DNA of 64,000 nt, from the NCBI GenBank assembly GCA_949284685.1, contig CASDWE010000002.1, forward strand, positions 784,106-848,105, read 5' to 3'. This DNA comes from an uncultured bacterium (GTDB taxonomy: Bacteria; Bacillota_I; Bacilli_A; RFN20; CAG-826). Below, one piece after another: positions 2,949-32,139 of the stretch (the stretch's first letter is position 1; each line of letters opens with the position of its first letter). The translations under genes were made by a program, and so were the position numbers. The notes below the pieces were generated by a model, which was given only the letters and a program-made list of their open reading frames with translations, was not told where the DNA came from and made no database searches.

Positions 2949-4457
2949 ATGGATATCAATACTTCAAAAATATCTTCTATTATTAAAAAAGAAATTGAAA
3001 ACTTTTCATCCTCTTTAAAAGATGATGATGTTGGCACTGTTATTTCAAGTGGAGATGGCATTTGTCTTGTATATGGATTGAATCATGCGATGTTAGGAGA
3101 ACTAGTCGTATTTGATGATGATATTTATGGAATGGTGATGAGTATTGAAGAAGACCATATTGGTGTTATTTTACTTGGTGACTGTAACAAAATTAAAGAA
3201 GGTGATGAAGTTAAAAGAACTAATCAAGTTATGCAAACTCCTGTTGGCGATAATCTTTTAGGAAGAGTAATTAATCCTCTTGGCGAACCACTTGACGGAT
3301 TAGGACCAATCAAAACTGAAAAGTATCGACCAATTGAAAGAATTGCACCTGGTGTAATGATACGTGAACCAGTTAACAAGCCATTACAAACTGGTATTAA
3401 AGCAATTGATGCGATGATACCAATCGGAAGAGGACAAAGAGAATTAATTATTGGCGATCGACAAGTAGGGAAAACAGCGATTGCTATTGATACTATAATT
3501 AATCAAAAAGATCAAAACGTATATTGTATATACGTTGCTATTGGCCAAAAAAATTCCACGGTAGCACAAATTGTTGATAAATTAAAATATTATCATGCTT
3601 TAGACTATACAGTAGTTATTAACGCTAGTGCTAGTCAAGAAGCACCATTACTTTATATTGCACCTTTTGTTGGATGTGCAATAGCAGAAGAATGGATGGA
3701 ACAAGGAAAAGATGTTTTGATTATTTATGATGATTTATCAAAACACGCTGTTAGTTATCGGGCCTTATCATTACTTTTGAAACGTTCACCTGGTCGAGAA
3801 GCTTATCCTGGCGACATTTTTTATTTGCATTCGAGATTATTGGAAAGAGCATGCAAATTAGATCAAGAACATGGTGGTGGTTCTATTACTGCTTTACCAA
3901 TAGTTGAAACTCAAGCCGGTGATATTTCCGCATATATTCCAACGAATATAATATCTATTACCGATGGTCAAATATTTTTAATTACTGACTTATTCAATGC
4001 CGGACAAAGACCAGCCATCGATAGCGGTTTTTCAGTTTCTCGTGTTGGTGGTGCCGCACAAGTTAAAGCGATGAAAAAAGTATCATCATCGTTAAAAATT
4101 GATTTAGCAAATTATAATGAATTAAAGTCATTTTCTCAATTTGGTTCGGATTTAGATGATGAAACAAAACGTATTTTGCGTCATGGTGAAGTATTGTTAG
4201 AAGTTTTAAAACAAGATCAATACAACACTTATCCTCTTATCGATCAAATTTTAGAATTATTTATTGCTAAAAATTATTATCTTGATAATTTTAAAAACGA
4301 TGAACTGCTTAAAATTTTAAATCGCGCTGTTAATTTCTTAAAAACAGAGCAAAAAGAATATGTATCACAAATTATTAAAACAAACGATATTTCAAAAGAT
4401 TTAGAAAATAATTTGATAAATAAATTAGATGAATATTTTAAAGCGTATCAAAATTAA
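2949..4457 (+). CDS. atpA: F0F1 ATP synthase subunit alpha
   Basis: 502 residues, full length. It has the P-loop GDRQVGKTA at residues 169-177, the family signature [17 protein letters not shown] near residue 355, and the arginine finger in the same segment. It forms the regulatory nucleotide sites of the F1 hexamer, alternating with beta. It follows atpH by five bases. No truncation or unusual residue was noticed. Confidence 0.98.
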
Positions 4458-4470
4458 TTAAGGATTATTT

Positions 4471-6737
<2,267 letters not shown>

Positions 6738-6738
6738 A

Positions 6739-7140
6739 ATGAAAAATACTTTCCATCTTATTATTACTTCACCACTAGGTGTTTATTTAGAAGACGATAT
6801 TGAATATTTAAACGCTTATGCTAGCGATGGTAATTTTGGTATCTTACCAAATTACACTAGTTTTATTTCTGATTTGGCTATTAGCAAATTATCCTATAAA
6901 AAAGATGGTAAAACGCTTGTATTTGCTATTTCTGGTGGGGTCTTAATGGTGGAAAATAATGTTTGTAATATCATTATTAATTCAATTGAATCAAAAGATG
7001 ATATCGACTTAGATCGTGCATATAAAGCAAAAAAACGTGCTGAAGAACGACTAAACGGTGATAAAAATATTGATGTGGAAAGAGCAAAACTTGCTCTATA
7101 TAAGGCGATAAATCGAATAAAGATTAAGGAAGAAAATTAA
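6739..7140 (+). CDS. atpC: F0F1 ATP synthase subunit epsilon
   Basis: 133 residues: an N-terminal beta-sandwich (FHLIITSPLGVYLEDDIEYL, then GNFGILPNYTS) and a C-terminal helical pair rich in Lys, Arg and Glu. The helical pair can extend to inhibit ATP hydrolysis. It is the last gene of the operon. Its stop overlaps by four bases the end of the opposite-strand lipoprotein gene, leaving no room for a dedicated terminator between them. Confidence 0.95.
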   Translation: MKNTFHLIITSPLGVYLEDDIEYLNAYASDGNFGILPNYTSFISDLAISKLSYKKDGKTLVFAISGGVLMVENNVCNIIINSIESKDDIDLDRAYKAKKRAEERLNGDKNIDVERAKLALYKAINRIKIKEEN

Positions 7141-25260: not shown

Positions 25261-27672
25261 ATGAATATGGGTTATAATCATCAACAAATAGAACAAAAAT
25301 GGAAAAAAATATGGGAAGATAATAAAACATATTATTGTGATACTAAAGATTTTAGTAAACCAAAATATTATGTTTTAGATATGTTTCCTTATCCATCTGG
25401 TCAAGGATTACATGTTGGTCATCCAGAAGGTTATACTGCTTCTGATATCATGGCGAGAATGAAAAGGATGCAAGGCTATAATGTCTTGCATCCAATCGGT
25501 TGGGATGCTTTTGGCTTGCCTGCTGAACAATATTCGATAAAAATGAATCAACATCCTTATAATTTTACCAAAGCTAATATAGAAAGATTTAAAAAGCAAA
25601 TTCAATCTTTTGGTTTTTCTTATGATTGGGACAAAGAAATAGCGACATGCGACCCTTCATATTATAAGTGGACACAATGGATATTTTTAAAGATGTACGA
25701 AAAAAATTTAGCATATATTGATTTTAGACCTGTTAATTTTTGTCCTGCTCTTGGAACAGTTTTAGCAAATGAAGAAGTCATAGATGGTAAAAGTGAAGTT
25801 GGTGGTTTTGAAGTAATTCGTAAATCAATGCGTCAGTGGTTATTAAAAATTACTGATTACGCTGATAAATTATTGGATGGTCTTGATGATTTAGATTGGC
25901 CAAATTCTACTTTAGAAATGCAAAAAAATTGGATTGGTAAATCAATAGGTGCAGTTGTTAATTTTAAAATTAAAGGCCATGATGATTTATCTTTTGATGT
26001 TTTTACAACTCGTGTGGATACACTTTATGGTTGCTCTTATACTTGTTTAGCACCTGAACATCCTTTATTAGACAAAATAGTTGCAAAAGAGCATTTAGAA
26101 GAAGTTAAAAAATATCAAGAAGAGGTTTTGCATAAATCTGAATTAGATCGTCAAAAGGTTAATAAGGATAAAACAGGTGTTTTTACTGGTGCTTACGCTG
26201 TTAACCCAATAAACAATGAAGAAGTTCCAATTTATGTTGCTGATTATGTTTTGCTAAGTTATGGGAGTGGTGCAGTTATGGCTGTTCCAAGCCATGACCA
26301 ACGCGATTATGAATTTGCTAAACAACACAATTTAAAATTTAAAAAAGTTATTGAAAATGATTTAACCGACCAAGCCTATGTTGATGATGGTCCTCATATC
26401 AATAGCGGTCTTGCAAATGGCAAGAATATTCAACAAGCCAAAGAAATAATTTTAAATGAATTAAAAAAACTTGGATATGGAAAAGAAAAAATATCATATA
26501 AATTGCGTGACTGGCTATTTTCAAGACAACGTTATTGGGGCGAACCAATACCGATGATTATTATGGATGATGGTAGTCTTTATCCTTTGCATGAAAATGA
26601 ATTGCCACTTGTTTTGCCTGAATTAGATGAATATAAACCTTCTGGAACTGGTGAATCTCCTCTTATTCACGCTAAACAATGGTTGAATGTTGTTATTGAT
26701 GGAAGACACGGTTTAAGAGAAACAAATACCATGCCACAATGGGCGGGTTCTTGTTGGTATTATATTCGTTATATTGATCCACATAACGATAAAGAAATTG
26801 GTGATAAGAAGTTATTAGATCATTGGTTGCCTGTTGATTTATATATTGGTGGTGCAGAACACGCTGTGTTGCATTTACTTTACGCGAGATTTTGGCATAA
26901 ATTTTTATACGATGAAGGCGTTGTTTCTTGTAAAGAACCATTTAAGAAATTATTTCATCAAGGAATGATTTTAGGCTCAAATGGTGAAAAAATGTCTAAG
27001 TCGCGAGGCAATGTCGTTAATCCTGATGAATTAATTATTCAATATGGTGCGGATGCTTTAAGACTTTATGAAATGTTTATGGGTCCATTAGAAGCATCTT
27101 TACCTTGGTCTAGCCAAGGATTAGAAGGTGCCAGAAGATATTTAGATCGCGTTTATAGAATTTATAGTGAAAAAGAATATCTAGATAAATTTTCAGACGA
27201 AAATTCCCATGAACTTGATTATTCATACAATTTTTTAGTTAAAAAAGTTACACAAGATTTTGAAAAATTGCAATTTAATACGGCAATTTCTCAAATGATG
27301 ATATTTATAAATGATGTTTATAAAGCTAAAAGTTTATATCGTCCATACATGGAAGGATTTGTGAAATTATTATCATGTATTTGTCCATTTTTAGGAGAAG
27401 AAATCTATCAAAGTTTAGGTCACAAGGAGTTAATTGATTATACAAGTTGGCCTACTTATGACGAAAGTCTTATTAAACTTGATAATGTAACTATTGCTAT
27501 TCAAGTAAATGGAAAGTTACGTGGAAGTGTAGAAGTTAAAAAAGATATTGAAGATGACGATTTAAAAGAAATTGTTTTCAAGTTAGATTCAATAATTAAA
27601 CACACAAAGGATAAACAGATAAAAAAAGTTATAGTAGTTAAAAACAAAATAGTAAATATTGTCGCAATTTAA
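25261..27672 (+). CDS. leuS: Leucyl-tRNA synthetase
   Basis: 803 residues, class Ia. It has the HIGH-type motif HVGH in [17 protein letters not shown], the editing domain ([11 protein letters not shown] and [16 protein letters not shown]), the KMSKS loop [10 protein letters not shown], and an anticodon-binding tail. The zinc-knuckle entry is [14 protein letters not shown], with few cysteines. Two ATGs, 25261 and 25267, are possible after AAGGAG; the second has the more usual spacing. No T-box was found upstream. It follows glgA by 13 bases. Confidence 0.97.
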
Positions 27673-27735: not shown

Positions 27736-28500
27736 ATGAATAATATTTTAATCGATATTGGAAATACAACAATTCAAGTAGCAATCTATCAAGATGTTAA
27801 CTTGATAATTCGTCATATTGTATCCACAGATTTAAATAAAGCGGAAGGTGATTATTATATTACTTTTTTTAACCTTTTTAATGCTTATTTAAATAACAAT
27901 ATTAGCCACATTATTATTTCTAGTGTTGTTCCATCATTAAACACGACTATTAAAGCCATTTTTAAGCGATTATTTAATGTTGAACCATTAATTTTAGGTC
28001 TTGGTTTTAAAACAAAAGTTATTTTTAAAATCGACAATATTAAAGAATTAGGAAGCGATATTATTTGTGATGTATGTGGGGGAATTAAAAAATATTCTTA
28101 TCCATTAATCATCGTTGATCTTGGAACAGCTTCTAAAATATTACATGTTGATCAAAACGGAGTTTTCACTGGTTGTATTATCGCTCCAGGGATTGCTATT
28201 TCAAAACAAACTTTGACAAAAAATACTGCACTTTTACCGGATATTGATTTTAATTTACCGAAAAATATAATAGGCAAAAATTCTATTGACGCTATTAAAA
28301 GCGGTGTTATATTTGGTCATGCCTTAATGATTGAAGGGTTTGTTAATAAGATTAAAGAAGAATATAAATTACCGTATAAAACAATTTTAACAGGTGGAAA
28401 CGCTCGTATTGTAAAAGAAATTTTAACAAAAAAAGGCTATATATTTGATGATACTTTGCTTTTAGATGGCTTAAATGAAATATTAAAGAAAAACATATGA
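27736..28500 (+). CDS. coaX: Pantothenate kinase, type III
   Basis: 254 residues, ASKHA fold. It phosphorylates pantothenate at the start of CoA synthesis; this type is not feedback-inhibited by CoA. The ATP-binding DIGNTTIQVAIY is at residues 6-17. VDLGTASKI carries the catalytic Asp, and LTGGNARI is the C-terminal nucleotide loop. It is coupled by ATGA to the next gene, whose N-terminal half is a vitamin-transport S-component. This suggests that pantothenate is taken up rather than made. The last CoA step enzyme, CoaE, is encoded in the fusion at 46935. Confidence 0.93.
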   Translation: MNNILIDIGNTTIQVAIYQDVNLIIRHIVSTDLNKAEGDYYITFFNLFNAYLNNNISHIIISSVVPSLNTTIKAIFKRLFNVEPLILGLGFKTKVIFKIDNIKELGSDIICDVCGGIKKYSYPLIIVDLGTASKILHVDQNGVFTGCIIAPGIAISKQTLTKNTALLPDIDFNLPKNIIGKNSIDAIKSGVIFGHALMIEGFVNKIKEEYKLPYKTILTGGNARIVKEILTKKGYIFDDTLLLDGLNEILKKNI

Positions 28501-30482
28501 AAAATAAGAAAACATTGCAAATTTGTATTGACGCTAGTTTTTTAGCAATCATTATTATTTTAACTTTTGTTCCTTATCTTGGATTTATTTCTATTCCAGG
28601 GACACCGATTTCTTTTACTATTATCCACGTAGTTGTTTTGCTTGGTGCGATGTTATTTGGATTTAAAGAAGGATTGCTATTTGGTTTTATATTTGGTTTA
28701 TGTTCATTAATAAAAGCAGCGACTATGCCACAGGCAATAACTGATCCATTATTTGTTAATCCGCTTATTTCTATTTTGCCTAGAATGATTTTTGGTGGGT
28801 TAAGCGGGTTATTTTTCTCACTTGTTAAAAAAACTAATAAGCCATTATTAACATATGTTTTATTTTATGTTTTGTGTGGTTTAATGACTTTATTTCATTC
28901 TTTTTTAACGTTGTCAGTTTTATATCTTTTCAATATGAACAGTCCATATTTTTCTGATGGCTATTTAATTCTTATTTCTTCTGTGATTTCAATTAATGGT
29001 ATAATTGAAATAGTTTTAGCAATTGTGGTTACTCCAAACATTGCCTTAAGTTTATTTAAAGGGTTTCCACAAATTACTAATTCGCCGTTTTTAGGAGTAT
29101 TATTTATGCAAAAAAAATTAAATTATAAAGTGATGTTGAAGCCATATAAAGAAGAAGCGATTTTAAATCTTAGGGATTTTATTGCAATAAATTCAACATA
29201 TGATGAAAAAACTATCGATGAAAATAATCCATTTGGAAAAGGAGTTAGCGATGCTTTAAATTATATTAGTCAATTAGCTAAAAATGATGGTTTTCATGTT
29301 ACGAATTATGGAAATAAAATTGTTGAAATTCTTTATGGCGAAGGAGAAAAAAATATTACGATCATGGCCCACGCGGATGTGGTTCCTGCAACTGGGAATT
29401 GGTCAAATAATCCTTTCAATATGGTTATTAAAAATGATATTTTATATGGTCGAGGTGTAAGTGATGACAAAGGTCCATTAATGTGTTGTTATTATGCTTT
29501 AAAAGCCATTAAAAATTATAATTTAGTTAAAGGCTATCAAATACGTTTTCTTGTTGGTGGCAATGAAGAAAGCGGTTCTCTTGGTATGAAATATTATTTT
29601 GAGACATTGAAGAAAAATCAACCAACATATGGTTTTTCTCCTGATGCAGATTGGCCCATTATTTTTGCTGAAAAAGCAATTATGAATTTTAATGTTACTT
29701 ATTTTAAAGCTTTAAAAGATGTTATTTCAATAAGCGGAGGAGTAGTATCTAATGCGGTTATTGATAAAGTTGTTTTAAAAATTAAAGATGAAAATTTATT
29801 TAATTTTTTAAGACAAAACGAAGTTGTTGATGAATCGATTTTTAAAGATGATGTGTATCAAATTATTCATTATGGTAAATCCGCACATGGTTCCACTCCT
29901 GAATTAGGTAAAAATGCTGTACTAGAATTATTAAATGTTTTAGCAAAATATTATCAAGATGATGATTTTACTAATTTTTATAATGCGATATCACCTCTTG
30001 ATGGAAAAGGTTTAAATATCGATAAAGCTAGTAAAGAAATGGGACATAATAGCTTAAATCTTGGCTTGTTTAATTATGAAAACAATAAGATGGAACTGAC
30101 TTTTAATTTTAGATTTGTCGATGGTTGTGATGTTAATCTTTTAAAAGAAAATATTCGATTAAAATTAAAAGACTGTTTAATAAATTTTGACGAGCCTAGT
30201 AAACTATTATACTATCCTAAAAAATCCAAATTAATTAAGACATTATTAAAGTCTTATCAAAAAATTACAAAAGATAAAAAATCTAAGCCAATTGCAATAG
30301 GTGGTGGAACTTATGCAAAGGAAGCTGATAATGTTGTAGCGTTTGGGATGCAATTTAAAGATTTCGATACGCATATGCATGAAAGTGATGAGTGCATTCG
30401 TCTTGATGATTTTAATAAATCGATGGAAATTTATTTAGATGCGATTCTTTCACTTGGAAAGTTAATAAAAAATGAGAACTAA
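28497..30482 (+). CDS. Fusion: ECF transporter S-component and PepV-like dipeptidase
   Basis: 661 residues in one uninterrupted frame. Residues 1-203 form an ECF substrate-binding membrane protein with about six helices (PYLGFISIPGTPISFTIIH, LFGFKEGLLFGFIFGL). Residues 204-661 are a full-length M20 dipeptidase. They contain MAHADVVPATGNW, SDDKGP, GGNEESGS, PDADWP, HGSTPELG and GGGTYAKEADNVV, so all metal and catalytic residues are present. An AGGAG site at 29093-29097 and ATG at 29106 (Met204) would allow the peptidase to be made alone as well. Overlap with coaX (ATGA) points to pantothenate as the transport substrate (inferred). Its 3' end overlaps trmB by 11 bases. Confidence 0.88.
   Translation: MKNKKTLQICIDASFLAIIIILTFVPYLGFISIPGTPISFTIIHVVVLLGAMLFGFKEGLLFGFIFGLCSLIKAATMPQAITDPLFVNPLISILPRMIFGGLSGLFFSLVKKTNKPLLTYVLFYVLCGLMTLFHSFLTLSVLYLFNMNSPYFSDGYLILISSVISINGIIEIVLAIVVTPNIALSLFKGFPQITNSPFLGVLFMQKKLNYKVMLKPYKEEAILNLRDFIAINSTYDEKTIDENNPFGKGVSDALNYISQLAKNDGFHVTNYGNKIVEILYGEGEKNITIMAHADVVPATGNWSNNPFNMVIKNDILYGRGVSDDKGPLMCCYYALKAIKNYNLVKGYQIRFLVGGNEESGSLGMKYYFETLKKNQPTYGFSPDADWPIIFAEKAIMNFNVTYFKALKDVISISGGVVSNAVIDKVVLKIKDENLFNFLRQNEVVDESIFKDDVYQIIHYGKSAHGSTPELGKNAVLELLNVLAKYYQDDDFTNFYNAISPLDGKGLNIDKASKEMGHNSLNLGLFNYENNKMELTFNFRFVDGCDVNLLKENIRLKLKDCLINFDEPSKLLYYPKKSKLIKTLLKSYQKITKDKKSKPIAIGGGTYAKEADNVVAFGMQFKDFDTHMHESDECIRLDDFNKSMEIYLDAILSLGKLIKNEN
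29092..29108 (+). promoter_or_regulatory. Internal ribosome site and ATG at the fusion junction
   Basis: TAGGAG ends eight bases before an in-frame ATG at the exact boundary between the S-component and the dipeptidase. It looks like the original start of a separate peptidase gene, kept after the stop between the genes was lost. Confidence 0.55.
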
Positions 30483-31086
30483 ATATAAACAATGGGCGAA
30501 TGATTTGCTTTTAGAAAGAAAAGATCTTCTTTACGATAATTTTGATAATTTTATTTATGATGATAAAAAAATAATTTTAGAAATAGGTTCTGGAAAAGGA
30601 GAATTTTTAGCAAAAATGGCTTTGAGATTTCCAAATTATTTTTTTGTTGGCGTTGAAAAAAATACAACATGTGCAGGTATTACCTTAAAAAAAATCATTA
30701 ATAATCAGTTAAATAATGCTAGATTAATTTGTGATGATGTTAATAATGTGATTGCCACAATTAAAGAAAATTCAATTGAAGGTATTATCTTAAATTTTTC
30801 TGATCCTTGGCCTAAAAAAAGGCATCATAAACGAAGATTAACAAACGAAAATCTTATTTTAAAATATTATGAAATTTTAAAAAAAGGCGGATTTTTAAAT
30901 TTTAAAACTGACAACAAACAGTTATTCGATGATTCTATTAAATATTTTAGCAATTCGCCATTTAAAATTTTGAAAATAGATTATGATTATAAATTTGATT
31001 CTTCTTTTGATGAAATTACTGACTATGAAATGTATTATCGTGATTTGAATCAACCTATATATAAAATTTATTTAATGAAGGAGTAA
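30472..31086 (+). CDS. trmB: tRNA (guanine-N7-)-methyltransferase
   Basis: 204 residues, class I SAM methyltransferase that forms m7G46 in the variable loop of tRNAs. The SAM loop is LEIGSGKGEFLAKMA, and the family signature is LNFSDPWPKKRHHKRRL. The C-terminal catalytic Thr/Asp/Glu segment is FKTDN. Its start overlaps the fusion gene by 11 bases. Confidence 0.96.
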   Translation: MRTKYKQWANDLLLERKDLLYDNFDNFIYDDKKIILEIGSGKGEFLAKMALRFPNYFFVGVEKNTTCAGITLKKIINNQLNNARLICDDVNNVIATIKENSIEGIILNFSDPWPKKRHHKRRLTNENLILKYYEILKKGGFLNFKTDNKQLFDDSIKYFSNSPFKILKIDYDYKFDSSFDEITDYEMYYRDLNQPIYKIYLMKE

Positions 31087-31089
31087 ATT

Positions 31090-32139
31090 ATGTTTAAAAA
31101 AACTGAATTTGATTTATTTAAAAAATATTGTCAAATAAATAGCGTTTCATCTTTTGAAAATAACGTTTGTAAACAATTAATTCAAGATTATAAAAAGTTA
31201 GATTTAGAATTAATTTATGATAATATTGGTAATATTTTTGCCTTAAAAAAATCAAAAAATCCTCACGCTTTTAAACTATTAATTGATGGACATATGGATG
31301 AAGTTGGTTTTATTGTAAGAAGAATATTAAAAAACGGATTAATTAATTGTCAGCCAATAGGAGGCATTTCCTTAAATGGTGTTTCTAGTCAAAGATTTTT
31401 ATTAACCAATAAAGAAGGAAAGGCGTTTGTTGGTTGTGTGGATATTTTATCAATCAAAGATGATAGTAAAATTTATGATTTAAATTTTGATTTTGGTTTT
31501 AAAGATGAACAAGATGCTCAAAATAATAATATAAAAATGGGCGATATGGTTTCGTTTATTGGCGAAACAGTTTTAATTAATAATAAAGAAAGACTGATGT
31601 CAAAAGCTATCGATGACCGTTATGGAATTGTTTTAGGATTAGAAATTTTAAAATATTTCAAGGATGTCGATTTAGATTTTGATTTATATGTTGGTGGTTC
31701 GGTACAAGAAGAAGTAGGTTTAAGAGGGGCAAAAGTATCCCCAAATCATATTCAACCTGATTTAGTTATCGTCTTAGATTGTTCGCCAAGTCGTGAAACG
31801 ATTCAAGATGATGGTCAACTTGGAAAAGGGGTTTTGATTAGATATCATGATGCTTCTATGATTGCAAAACCAAAACTTTTATCTTTTCAAGAAGAAGTAT
31901 TAAAAAAACATCATATAAAATATCAATATTTTAAAGCTCTAGGTGGCACAAACGCGGGAGCGTATCATACTTCTTTAGAGGGTGTAAATACGCTTACACA
32001 TTGTATATGTGCAAGAAATTTACATAGTGCAAATACAATTATCGATAGCGGTGATTATCAATCCGCTAAAAAAGGGTTAATTAAAATATTACTTTCGCTA
32101 AATCATGAGAAGATTGCATCATTAATACAACAACAATAA
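31090..32139 (+). CDS. M42 family glutamyl/leucyl aminopeptidase
   Basis: 349 residues, cobalt/zinc TET-type aminopeptidase that trims short cytosolic peptides. Metal ligands and catalytic acids are visible in DGHMDEVGFIV, KAIDDRYGIVLG, VQEEVGLRGAK, LDCSPSRE, and the C-terminal GGTNAGAYHTS with the final metal His near CARNLHS. With the upstream PepV-like dipeptidase it suggests growth on peptides. It starts three bases after trmB. Confidence 0.93.
   Translation: MFKKTEFDLFKKYCQINSVSSFENNVCKQLIQDYKKLDLELIYDNIGNIFALKKSKNPHAFKLLIDGHMDEVGFIVRRILKNGLINCQPIGGISLNGVSSQRFLLTNKEGKAFVGCVDILSIKDDSKIYDLNFDFGFKDEQDAQNNNIKMGDMVSFIGETVLINNKERLMSKAIDDRYGIVLGLEILKYFKDVDLDFDLYVGGSVQEEVGLRGAKVSPNHIQPDLVIVLDCSPSRETIQDDGQLGKGVLIRYHDASMIAKPKLLSFQEEVLKKHHIKYQYFKALGGTNAGAYHTSLEGVNTLTHCICARNLHSANTIIDSGDYQSAKKGLIKILLSLNHEKIASLIQQQ

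Follow-up and report, generated by a model that had tools for sequence, protein, structure and literature searches.

A gene fusion joining a PanT-type ECF S-component to a PepV-type dipeptidase recurs in a family of small-genome Bacilli

Introduction

The closest described relatives of the two halves of the protein reported here are PanT, the S-component of the ECF-PanT complexes, and the M20 dipeptidases PepV and Sapep. Known S-components end at the last of their six membrane helices (H6), and the C-terminus of the S-type fold is cytoplasmic (PMC11109136). An AxxxA motif is necessary for docking of an S-component on EcfT, and receptors of this fold carry large residues at this position (PMC11109136). 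Mutagenesis of Lactobacillus PanTs shows that a tryptophan, an arginine and an asparagine residue are important for pantothenate binding (PMC7755397). Known PepV is a separate and mostly cytosolic enzyme. PepV of L. delbrueckii is a monomer (PMC6271292), and a minute amount of S. aureus PepV is detected in the membrane fraction; the S. aureus protein also binds SecA (PMC12004944). The free N-terminal amine of the dipeptide is believed to be a point of contact for enzymes of the PepV type (PMC6271292).

By analogy of architecture, the nearest parallel to a PanT-PepV fusion protein is provided by the 5TMR sensor histidine kinases, in which a six-helix S-type membrane fold is likewise followed by a cytoplasmic domain (PMC11109136). 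These proteins are receptors that lack AxxxA and are joined to signalling domains, whereas the PanT-PepV fusion protein retains AxxxA and has a peptidase attached. The C-terminal soluble domains of the sensor kinases are argued to limit toppling of the S-fold (PMC11109136). In the open-access literature searched, no description of a peptidase linked to an S-component was found. In this report, such a fusion is described from a 64,000-nucleotide stretch of DNA of an uncultured bacterium (hereafter the window), together with its distribution and operon context among related genomes.

Results

Domain organization of the fusion protein

The initial annotation of the window described a vitamin transporter S-component that continues without a stop into a full dipeptidase with an intact active site, and this description holds. 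The gene is a single open frame of 661 codons without an in-frame stop codon at residues 195-204 (Table 1). The Pfam profile PF12822 (ECF_trnsprt) matches residues 11-182 with 51.9 bits against a cut-off of 30.7, the Pfam Peptidase_M20 domain is located at residues 289-651, and the NCBIfam model TIGR01887 (Sapep family dipeptidase) matches residues 219-650 with 379.5 bits against a cut-off of 208. The fusion is a new domain architecture that is built from known families.

Table 1. Features of the panT::pepV locus in the window
Feature	Coordinates	Strand	Evidence or remark
leuS, first of the conserved operon genes	25261..27672	+	ORF
coaX, type III pantothenate kinase; stop overlaps fusion start	27736..28500	+	PF03309 E 4.7e-51
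panT::pepV fusion gene	28497..30482	+	661 aa; fused in 20 genomes
PanT half, residues 1-190, six-helix S-component; A13xxxA17, pocket R96	28497..29066	+	PF12822; 6zg3_C and 4rfs_S matches; motif and pocket columns
Linker, residues 191-207 (~17 residues)	29067..29117	+	gap between PanT match end and PepV match start
AGGAG, Shine-Dalgarno-like, within the coding frame	29093..29097	+	duplex with 16S tail -6.8 kcal/mol
M204 ATG, probable internal start codon for free PepV (458 aa)	29106..29108	+	position of the pepV start of unfused relatives
PepV half, residues 204-661; H292, D294, D323, E357, E358, D383, H464, R539, H628	29106..30479	+	TIGR01887; 1lfw and 3khx matches
trmB, tRNA (guanine-N7) methyltransferase; overlaps fusion end	30472..31086	+	PF02390 E 1.5e-40
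M42 glutamyl-aminopeptidase-like gene	31090..32139	+	PF05343 E 2.4e-70

When the first 201 residues are compared with the PDB, only 6zg3_C (E 5.8e-23) and 4rfs_S (E 2.4e-21) are matched up to E = 10. Both chains are PanT of ECF-PanT complexes, from L. delbrueckii (6ZG3) and L. brevis (4RFS) respectively, and the match covers the whole length of PanT. The docking motif is present in helix 1 of the window protein as A13SFLA17. It is AxxxA in 15 of the 20 fused PanTs and GxxxA, SxxxA or AxxxT in the other five. The window genome encodes EcfA1-EcfA2-EcfT, with EcfT detected at 162 bits and two ATPase genes directly before it. This genome should need external pantothenate, because no PanC (pantothenate synthetase) is detected in it above the cut-off. 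Of the three pocket residues, the arginine (R96) is kept in all 44 PanTs of the family, whereas the tryptophan is replaced by phenylalanine or methionine and the asparagine by histidine in all 44, fused and unfused alike. A fusion-specific change of the PanT pocket is therefore ruled out, and these family-wide replacements may be the sign of a PanT subgroup whose affinity or substrate has changed.

The earlier proposal that this half probably takes up pantothenate is supported by the exclusive PDB matches to ECF-PanT, the upstream coaX, the presence of EcfA-EcfA'-EcfT and the failure to find PanC in the genome. Its cargo is likely to be pantothenate, although the exact substrate is uncertain because two of the three binding residues are replaced. 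The PanT half shares with known ECF-PanT the AxxxA motif, the pocket arginine, the ECF module in the genome and the coaX neighbour, in addition to the sequence match. It differs in that known PanT stops after helix 6, whereas the fusion adds a 450-residue enzyme, and in that the tryptophan and asparagine of the known pocket are replaced, by phenylalanine or methionine and by histidine respectively, in this family, fused or not. Ending at helix 6 is not defining for the fold or mechanism. Judged from sequence, membership of the ECF S-components stands despite the C-terminal enzyme, because this ending is a habit of the known members and not a part of the PF12822 profile. Another S-component frame of the window genome (G000:C2:261762-262268; L119, 2488-3585 on the minus strand) has 366 codons, with an extra hydrophobic N-terminal sequence before the S-type fold. 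It was considered as a further fused S-component and rejected, as no enzyme domain is apparent in it by eye.

Residues ~208-655 of the fusion form a complete M20 dipeptidase of the PepV/Sapep type. They match 1lfw (PepV, E 4.7e-60) and 3khx (Sapep, E 6.2e-58) over nearly the whole length, and the metal ligands, the catalytic aspartate and glutamate residues, and the histidine and arginine residues of the lid are all present in the alignment with 1lfw. The catalytic and substrate-binding residues checked are invariant in fused and unfused relatives, one contig-truncated copy aside. In contrast to known PepV, the enzyme is tied covalently to a membrane transporter subunit, and its score for the PepV equivalog NF005591 (390.8 bits) is below the cut-off of 435. 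It is therefore filed in the Sapep/PepV subfamily and not as a certain PepV orthologue, and its substrate range may differ. Because PepV of L. delbrueckii is monomeric, tethering need not disturb the assembly of the enzyme. Strong purifying selection acts on both halves, with dN/dS values between the window genome (G000) and a relative, G001, of 0.01 (PanT half) and 0.05 (PepV half).

Operon context

The start of the fusion overlaps coaX by 4 nt (ATGA), in agreement with the overlap noted in the initial annotation. The gene order leuS-coaX-[panT]-pepV-trmB recurs across 60 loci, often with an M42 peptidase gene after it. LeuS and coaX are found together in 56 of these loci and TrmB and PepV in 59, and the M42 gene is downstream at the window locus and at 17 others of the set. 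With few exceptions, coaX lies upstream in the loci examined. Many relatives have panT and pepV as separate adjacent genes, and in others panT is missing from the locus and pepV directly follows coaX. No riboswitch or other RNA element was found at the operon.

Of 46 loci, 20 have a fused panT-pepV junction, a ratio that is not a population frequency because the locus set is enriched for fusions. Fusion is not observed at the glgA-leuS, leuS-coaX, coaX-panT or pepV-trmB junctions (36 to 59 loci each), and is observed once among 18 trmB-M42 junctions. This single case is a TrmB::M42 aminopeptidase fusion in one frame of 567 codons (L079 of G158, 5351-7052 on the pepV strand). In one fused genome (G104, locus L063) trmB appears to be split into two overlapping frames, at about 5957-6544 on the pepV strand, probably because of a frameshift or an assembly error. 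In two loci, L061 (G002, 3348-3981) and L110 (G009, 3985-4519), the gene between coaX and pepV encodes another type of S-component, in which the PanT arginine is absent and the match to PanT is only weak. This S-component may have replaced PanT non-orthologously and is possibly a further one for pantothenate. G002 carries the genus label of the window genome, yet its operon proteins group elsewhere on the tree.

Recurrence and origin of the fusion

The initial annotation suggested a search for the same fusion, and for separate halves, in relatives. A search of 196 genomes of the family followed by locus extraction detects the fusion in 20 genomes of six genera (g1, g41, g43, g44, g45 and g47), all within this one family of small-genome Bacilli. 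The halves are encoded by separate adjacent genes in related genomes, but the relatives are not all of the two-gene type. The junction at residues 195-204, which is open in the window, is also open in G001 (98% amino acid identity, with 90 nt differences over the whole gene), G004 (64%) and G003 (54%), three other species assigned to the window genus, and in 16 further genomes. Outside the family, no fusion is found among the matches listed from a search of the taxonomic order (279 genomes). In a class sample, the PanT half as query gives matches in 158 of 395 genomes, and the PanT-like matches listed outside the family are all standalone frames of 101-316 aa. A class search with the whole fusion at a strict limit of 1e-115, which speaks only to close fused relatives, gives none outside the family. 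Open frames of about 700 aa in g40 and g7 were examined as other S-component fusions and rejected, since the loci read have panT (or coaX) and pepV as distinct genes, adjacent and in frame, with at least one stop between them.

On a tree of LeuS, CoaX, PepV and TrmB, the fused loci do not form one clade (AU p 8e-5 with all loci; p 0.03 on a tree of PanT only), and at least three changes of state are needed among the PanT-bearing loci. The simplest reading is that the fusion would have arisen inside the leuS-coaX-panT-pepV-trmB operon at least twice, by two or three gains with g43 apart from the rest, because PanT outside the family is standalone. Repeated fission of one ancient fusion is an alternative that costs more steps. 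Locus L106 represents either a re-split gene or a sign that g44 fused independently.

A probable internal start in the linker

In the linker of the window gene, AGGAG is followed after 8 nt by the ATG of M204, at the ancestral start site of pepV, a feature absent from the initial annotation. The energy calculated for this Shine-Dalgarno sequence lies within the range of the separate pepV genes (-5.7 to -11.8 kcal/mol). For 165 other in-frame ATGs in the fused pepV parts, used as controls, the median is -2.0 and the 5% point is -7.1 kcal/mol, so that ~5-10% of the control ATGs match M204 and its Shine-Dalgarno sequence is strong, not unique. The Shine-Dalgarno sequence at the start of the fusion itself is weak (-2.5 kcal/mol). 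No stable RNA structure was found around the internal Shine-Dalgarno sequence and ATG. When the window gene is compared with that of G004, the longest run of identical nucleotides in the gene (24 nt) spans the M204 ATG. A start codon with a strong Shine-Dalgarno sequence is present near the junction in 10 of the 20 fusions and one with a weaker sequence in two more, whereas the remaining eight (G003, four of g44 and three of g43) have no internal start with such a sequence.

The window gene probably yields both the full-length protein and free PepV, because the old pepV start survives together with its Shine-Dalgarno sequence. In the eight fusions without such a start, the peptidase can, as judged from the gene, only be made in the fused form. 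A search of the window genome at E up to 1e-3 finds no second copy of either half, and no second PepV or PanT is found in G003, G114, G048, G071 and G090, which lack the internal start. The anatomy of the protein implies a peptidase positioned at the membrane, as suggested earlier, and this placement would be forced in the eight fusions without an internal start, but free PepV is probably also made from the window gene. A comparable arrangement is that of Cas11b inside cas8b (PMC11899642), in which a second start in one frame likewise gives the C-terminal part separately. The second product of cas8b has been shown experimentally, whereas that of panT::pepV is predicted from the Shine-Dalgarno sequence, the start codon and conservation.

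Discussion

The fusion probably encodes a bifunctional, membrane-tethered protein with chemically independent halves. The PanT-type S-component would dock on the shared ECF module and import pantothenate, and would be followed, after the short linker, by a catalytically intact PepV dipeptidase in the cytoplasm. PepV would lie in the cytosol, the site of its peptide substrates, because the C-terminus of the fold is cytoplasmic. The fusion would have originated by loss of the panT stop codon between neighbours of the coaX-panT-pepV-trmB operon, and the peptidase would merely be tethered to the membrane and produced together with the transporter. In the window species, the old ribosome-binding site and ATG of pepV are kept in frame, and free PepV would also be made; in other lineages the internal start is gone and PepV would exist only in the tethered form.

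The protein raises a question of toppling, because known S-components end at their last membrane helix and because extensions beyond it are argued to limit this movement in the receptor branch (PMC11109136). For the same reason, and by analogy with the sensor kinases, the tethered enzyme might hinder transport. An S-component that carries both the ECF-docking motif and a large cytoplasmic enzyme represents a natural and testable case of whether toppling tolerates a C-terminal cargo.

It is rather unlikely, though not negligibly so, that the fusion is a nearly neutral consequence of losing the stop codon, with the internal start supplying nearly all working PepV in the window species and the PanT extension being tolerated and unused. 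For the window species this is a real rival: an internal start is present there and in more than half of the fusions, the fusion's own start has a weak Shine-Dalgarno sequence, the lineage has small genomes, and a second operon fusion, TrmB::M42, occurs in one relative. It is weaker for species without the internal start, since in those eight fusions, which belong to three lineages, the fused form must do the peptidase work. Fusion at the panT-pepV junction and hardly at all at the other junctions of the operon, in a sample enriched for fusions, and a fused state that spans genera instead of one clade also argue against a neutral origin.

That the covalent linkage is itself functional, with the peptidase acting on, or being set by, the transport cycle of the S-component and with PanT toppling while it carries a C-terminal cargo of ~50 kDa, is considered unlikely.

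The initial annotation also raised the possibility that the fused enzyme splits a conjugate brought in by the transporter or frees pantothenate from peptides. In its specific form, pantothenate coupled to an amino acid, for example pantothenylglycine, or a related peptide would enter through PanT and be cut by PepV at the membrane. Fused and unfused proteins have the same pocket and catalytic residues, and pepV stays beside coaX in lineages in which the locus has no PanT, and the suggestion is accordingly not upheld; this reading is quite improbable, even though much of the family shares the order coaX-panT-pepV. The M20 relatives of PepV include N-acyl amino acid hydrolases, which would suit such a reaction. 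In Lactobacillus plantarum, pantothenylglycine is reported to support growth in place of pantothenate (PMC12570885), but pantothenoyl conjugates lack the free N-terminal amine that PepV-type enzymes are thought to contact (PMC6271292). Supply of beta-alanine for pantothenate synthesis is likewise unlikely, because no PanC was found above the cut-off that could use beta-alanine from beta-alanyl peptides.

It is very improbable that the S-component half does not transport and is a membrane anchor or a sensor that controls the peptidase, as in the 5TMR sensor kinases. All 20 fusions keep AxxxA or carry a conservative variant of it, whereas receptors have large residues at these positions, and loss of transport should be costly in the window genome, in which neither a second PanT nor PanC is found. 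The dN/dS of 0.01 in the PanT half is also against it, although the S-fold proteins best known for carrying soluble domains at the C-terminus are receptors, for which toppling is said to be limited (PMC11109136). An assembly or sequencing artefact that joins two genes is ruled out for practical purposes: the genomes look like metagenome assemblies, but the same open junction is present in 19 other genomes, including separate ones at 98, 64 and 54% identity.

With the membrane-tethered, bifunctional protein as the preferred reading, the set of loci displays intermediates of operon fusion, namely separate genes, fused genes with the old internal start and fused genes without it. In loci L087, L089-L096 and L104 (g38, g17 and g48), panT and pepV are separate genes that share a reading frame and are divided by one in-frame stop, with the Shine-Dalgarno sequence and ATG of pepV just past this stop, so that these loci are one stop loss short of fusion.
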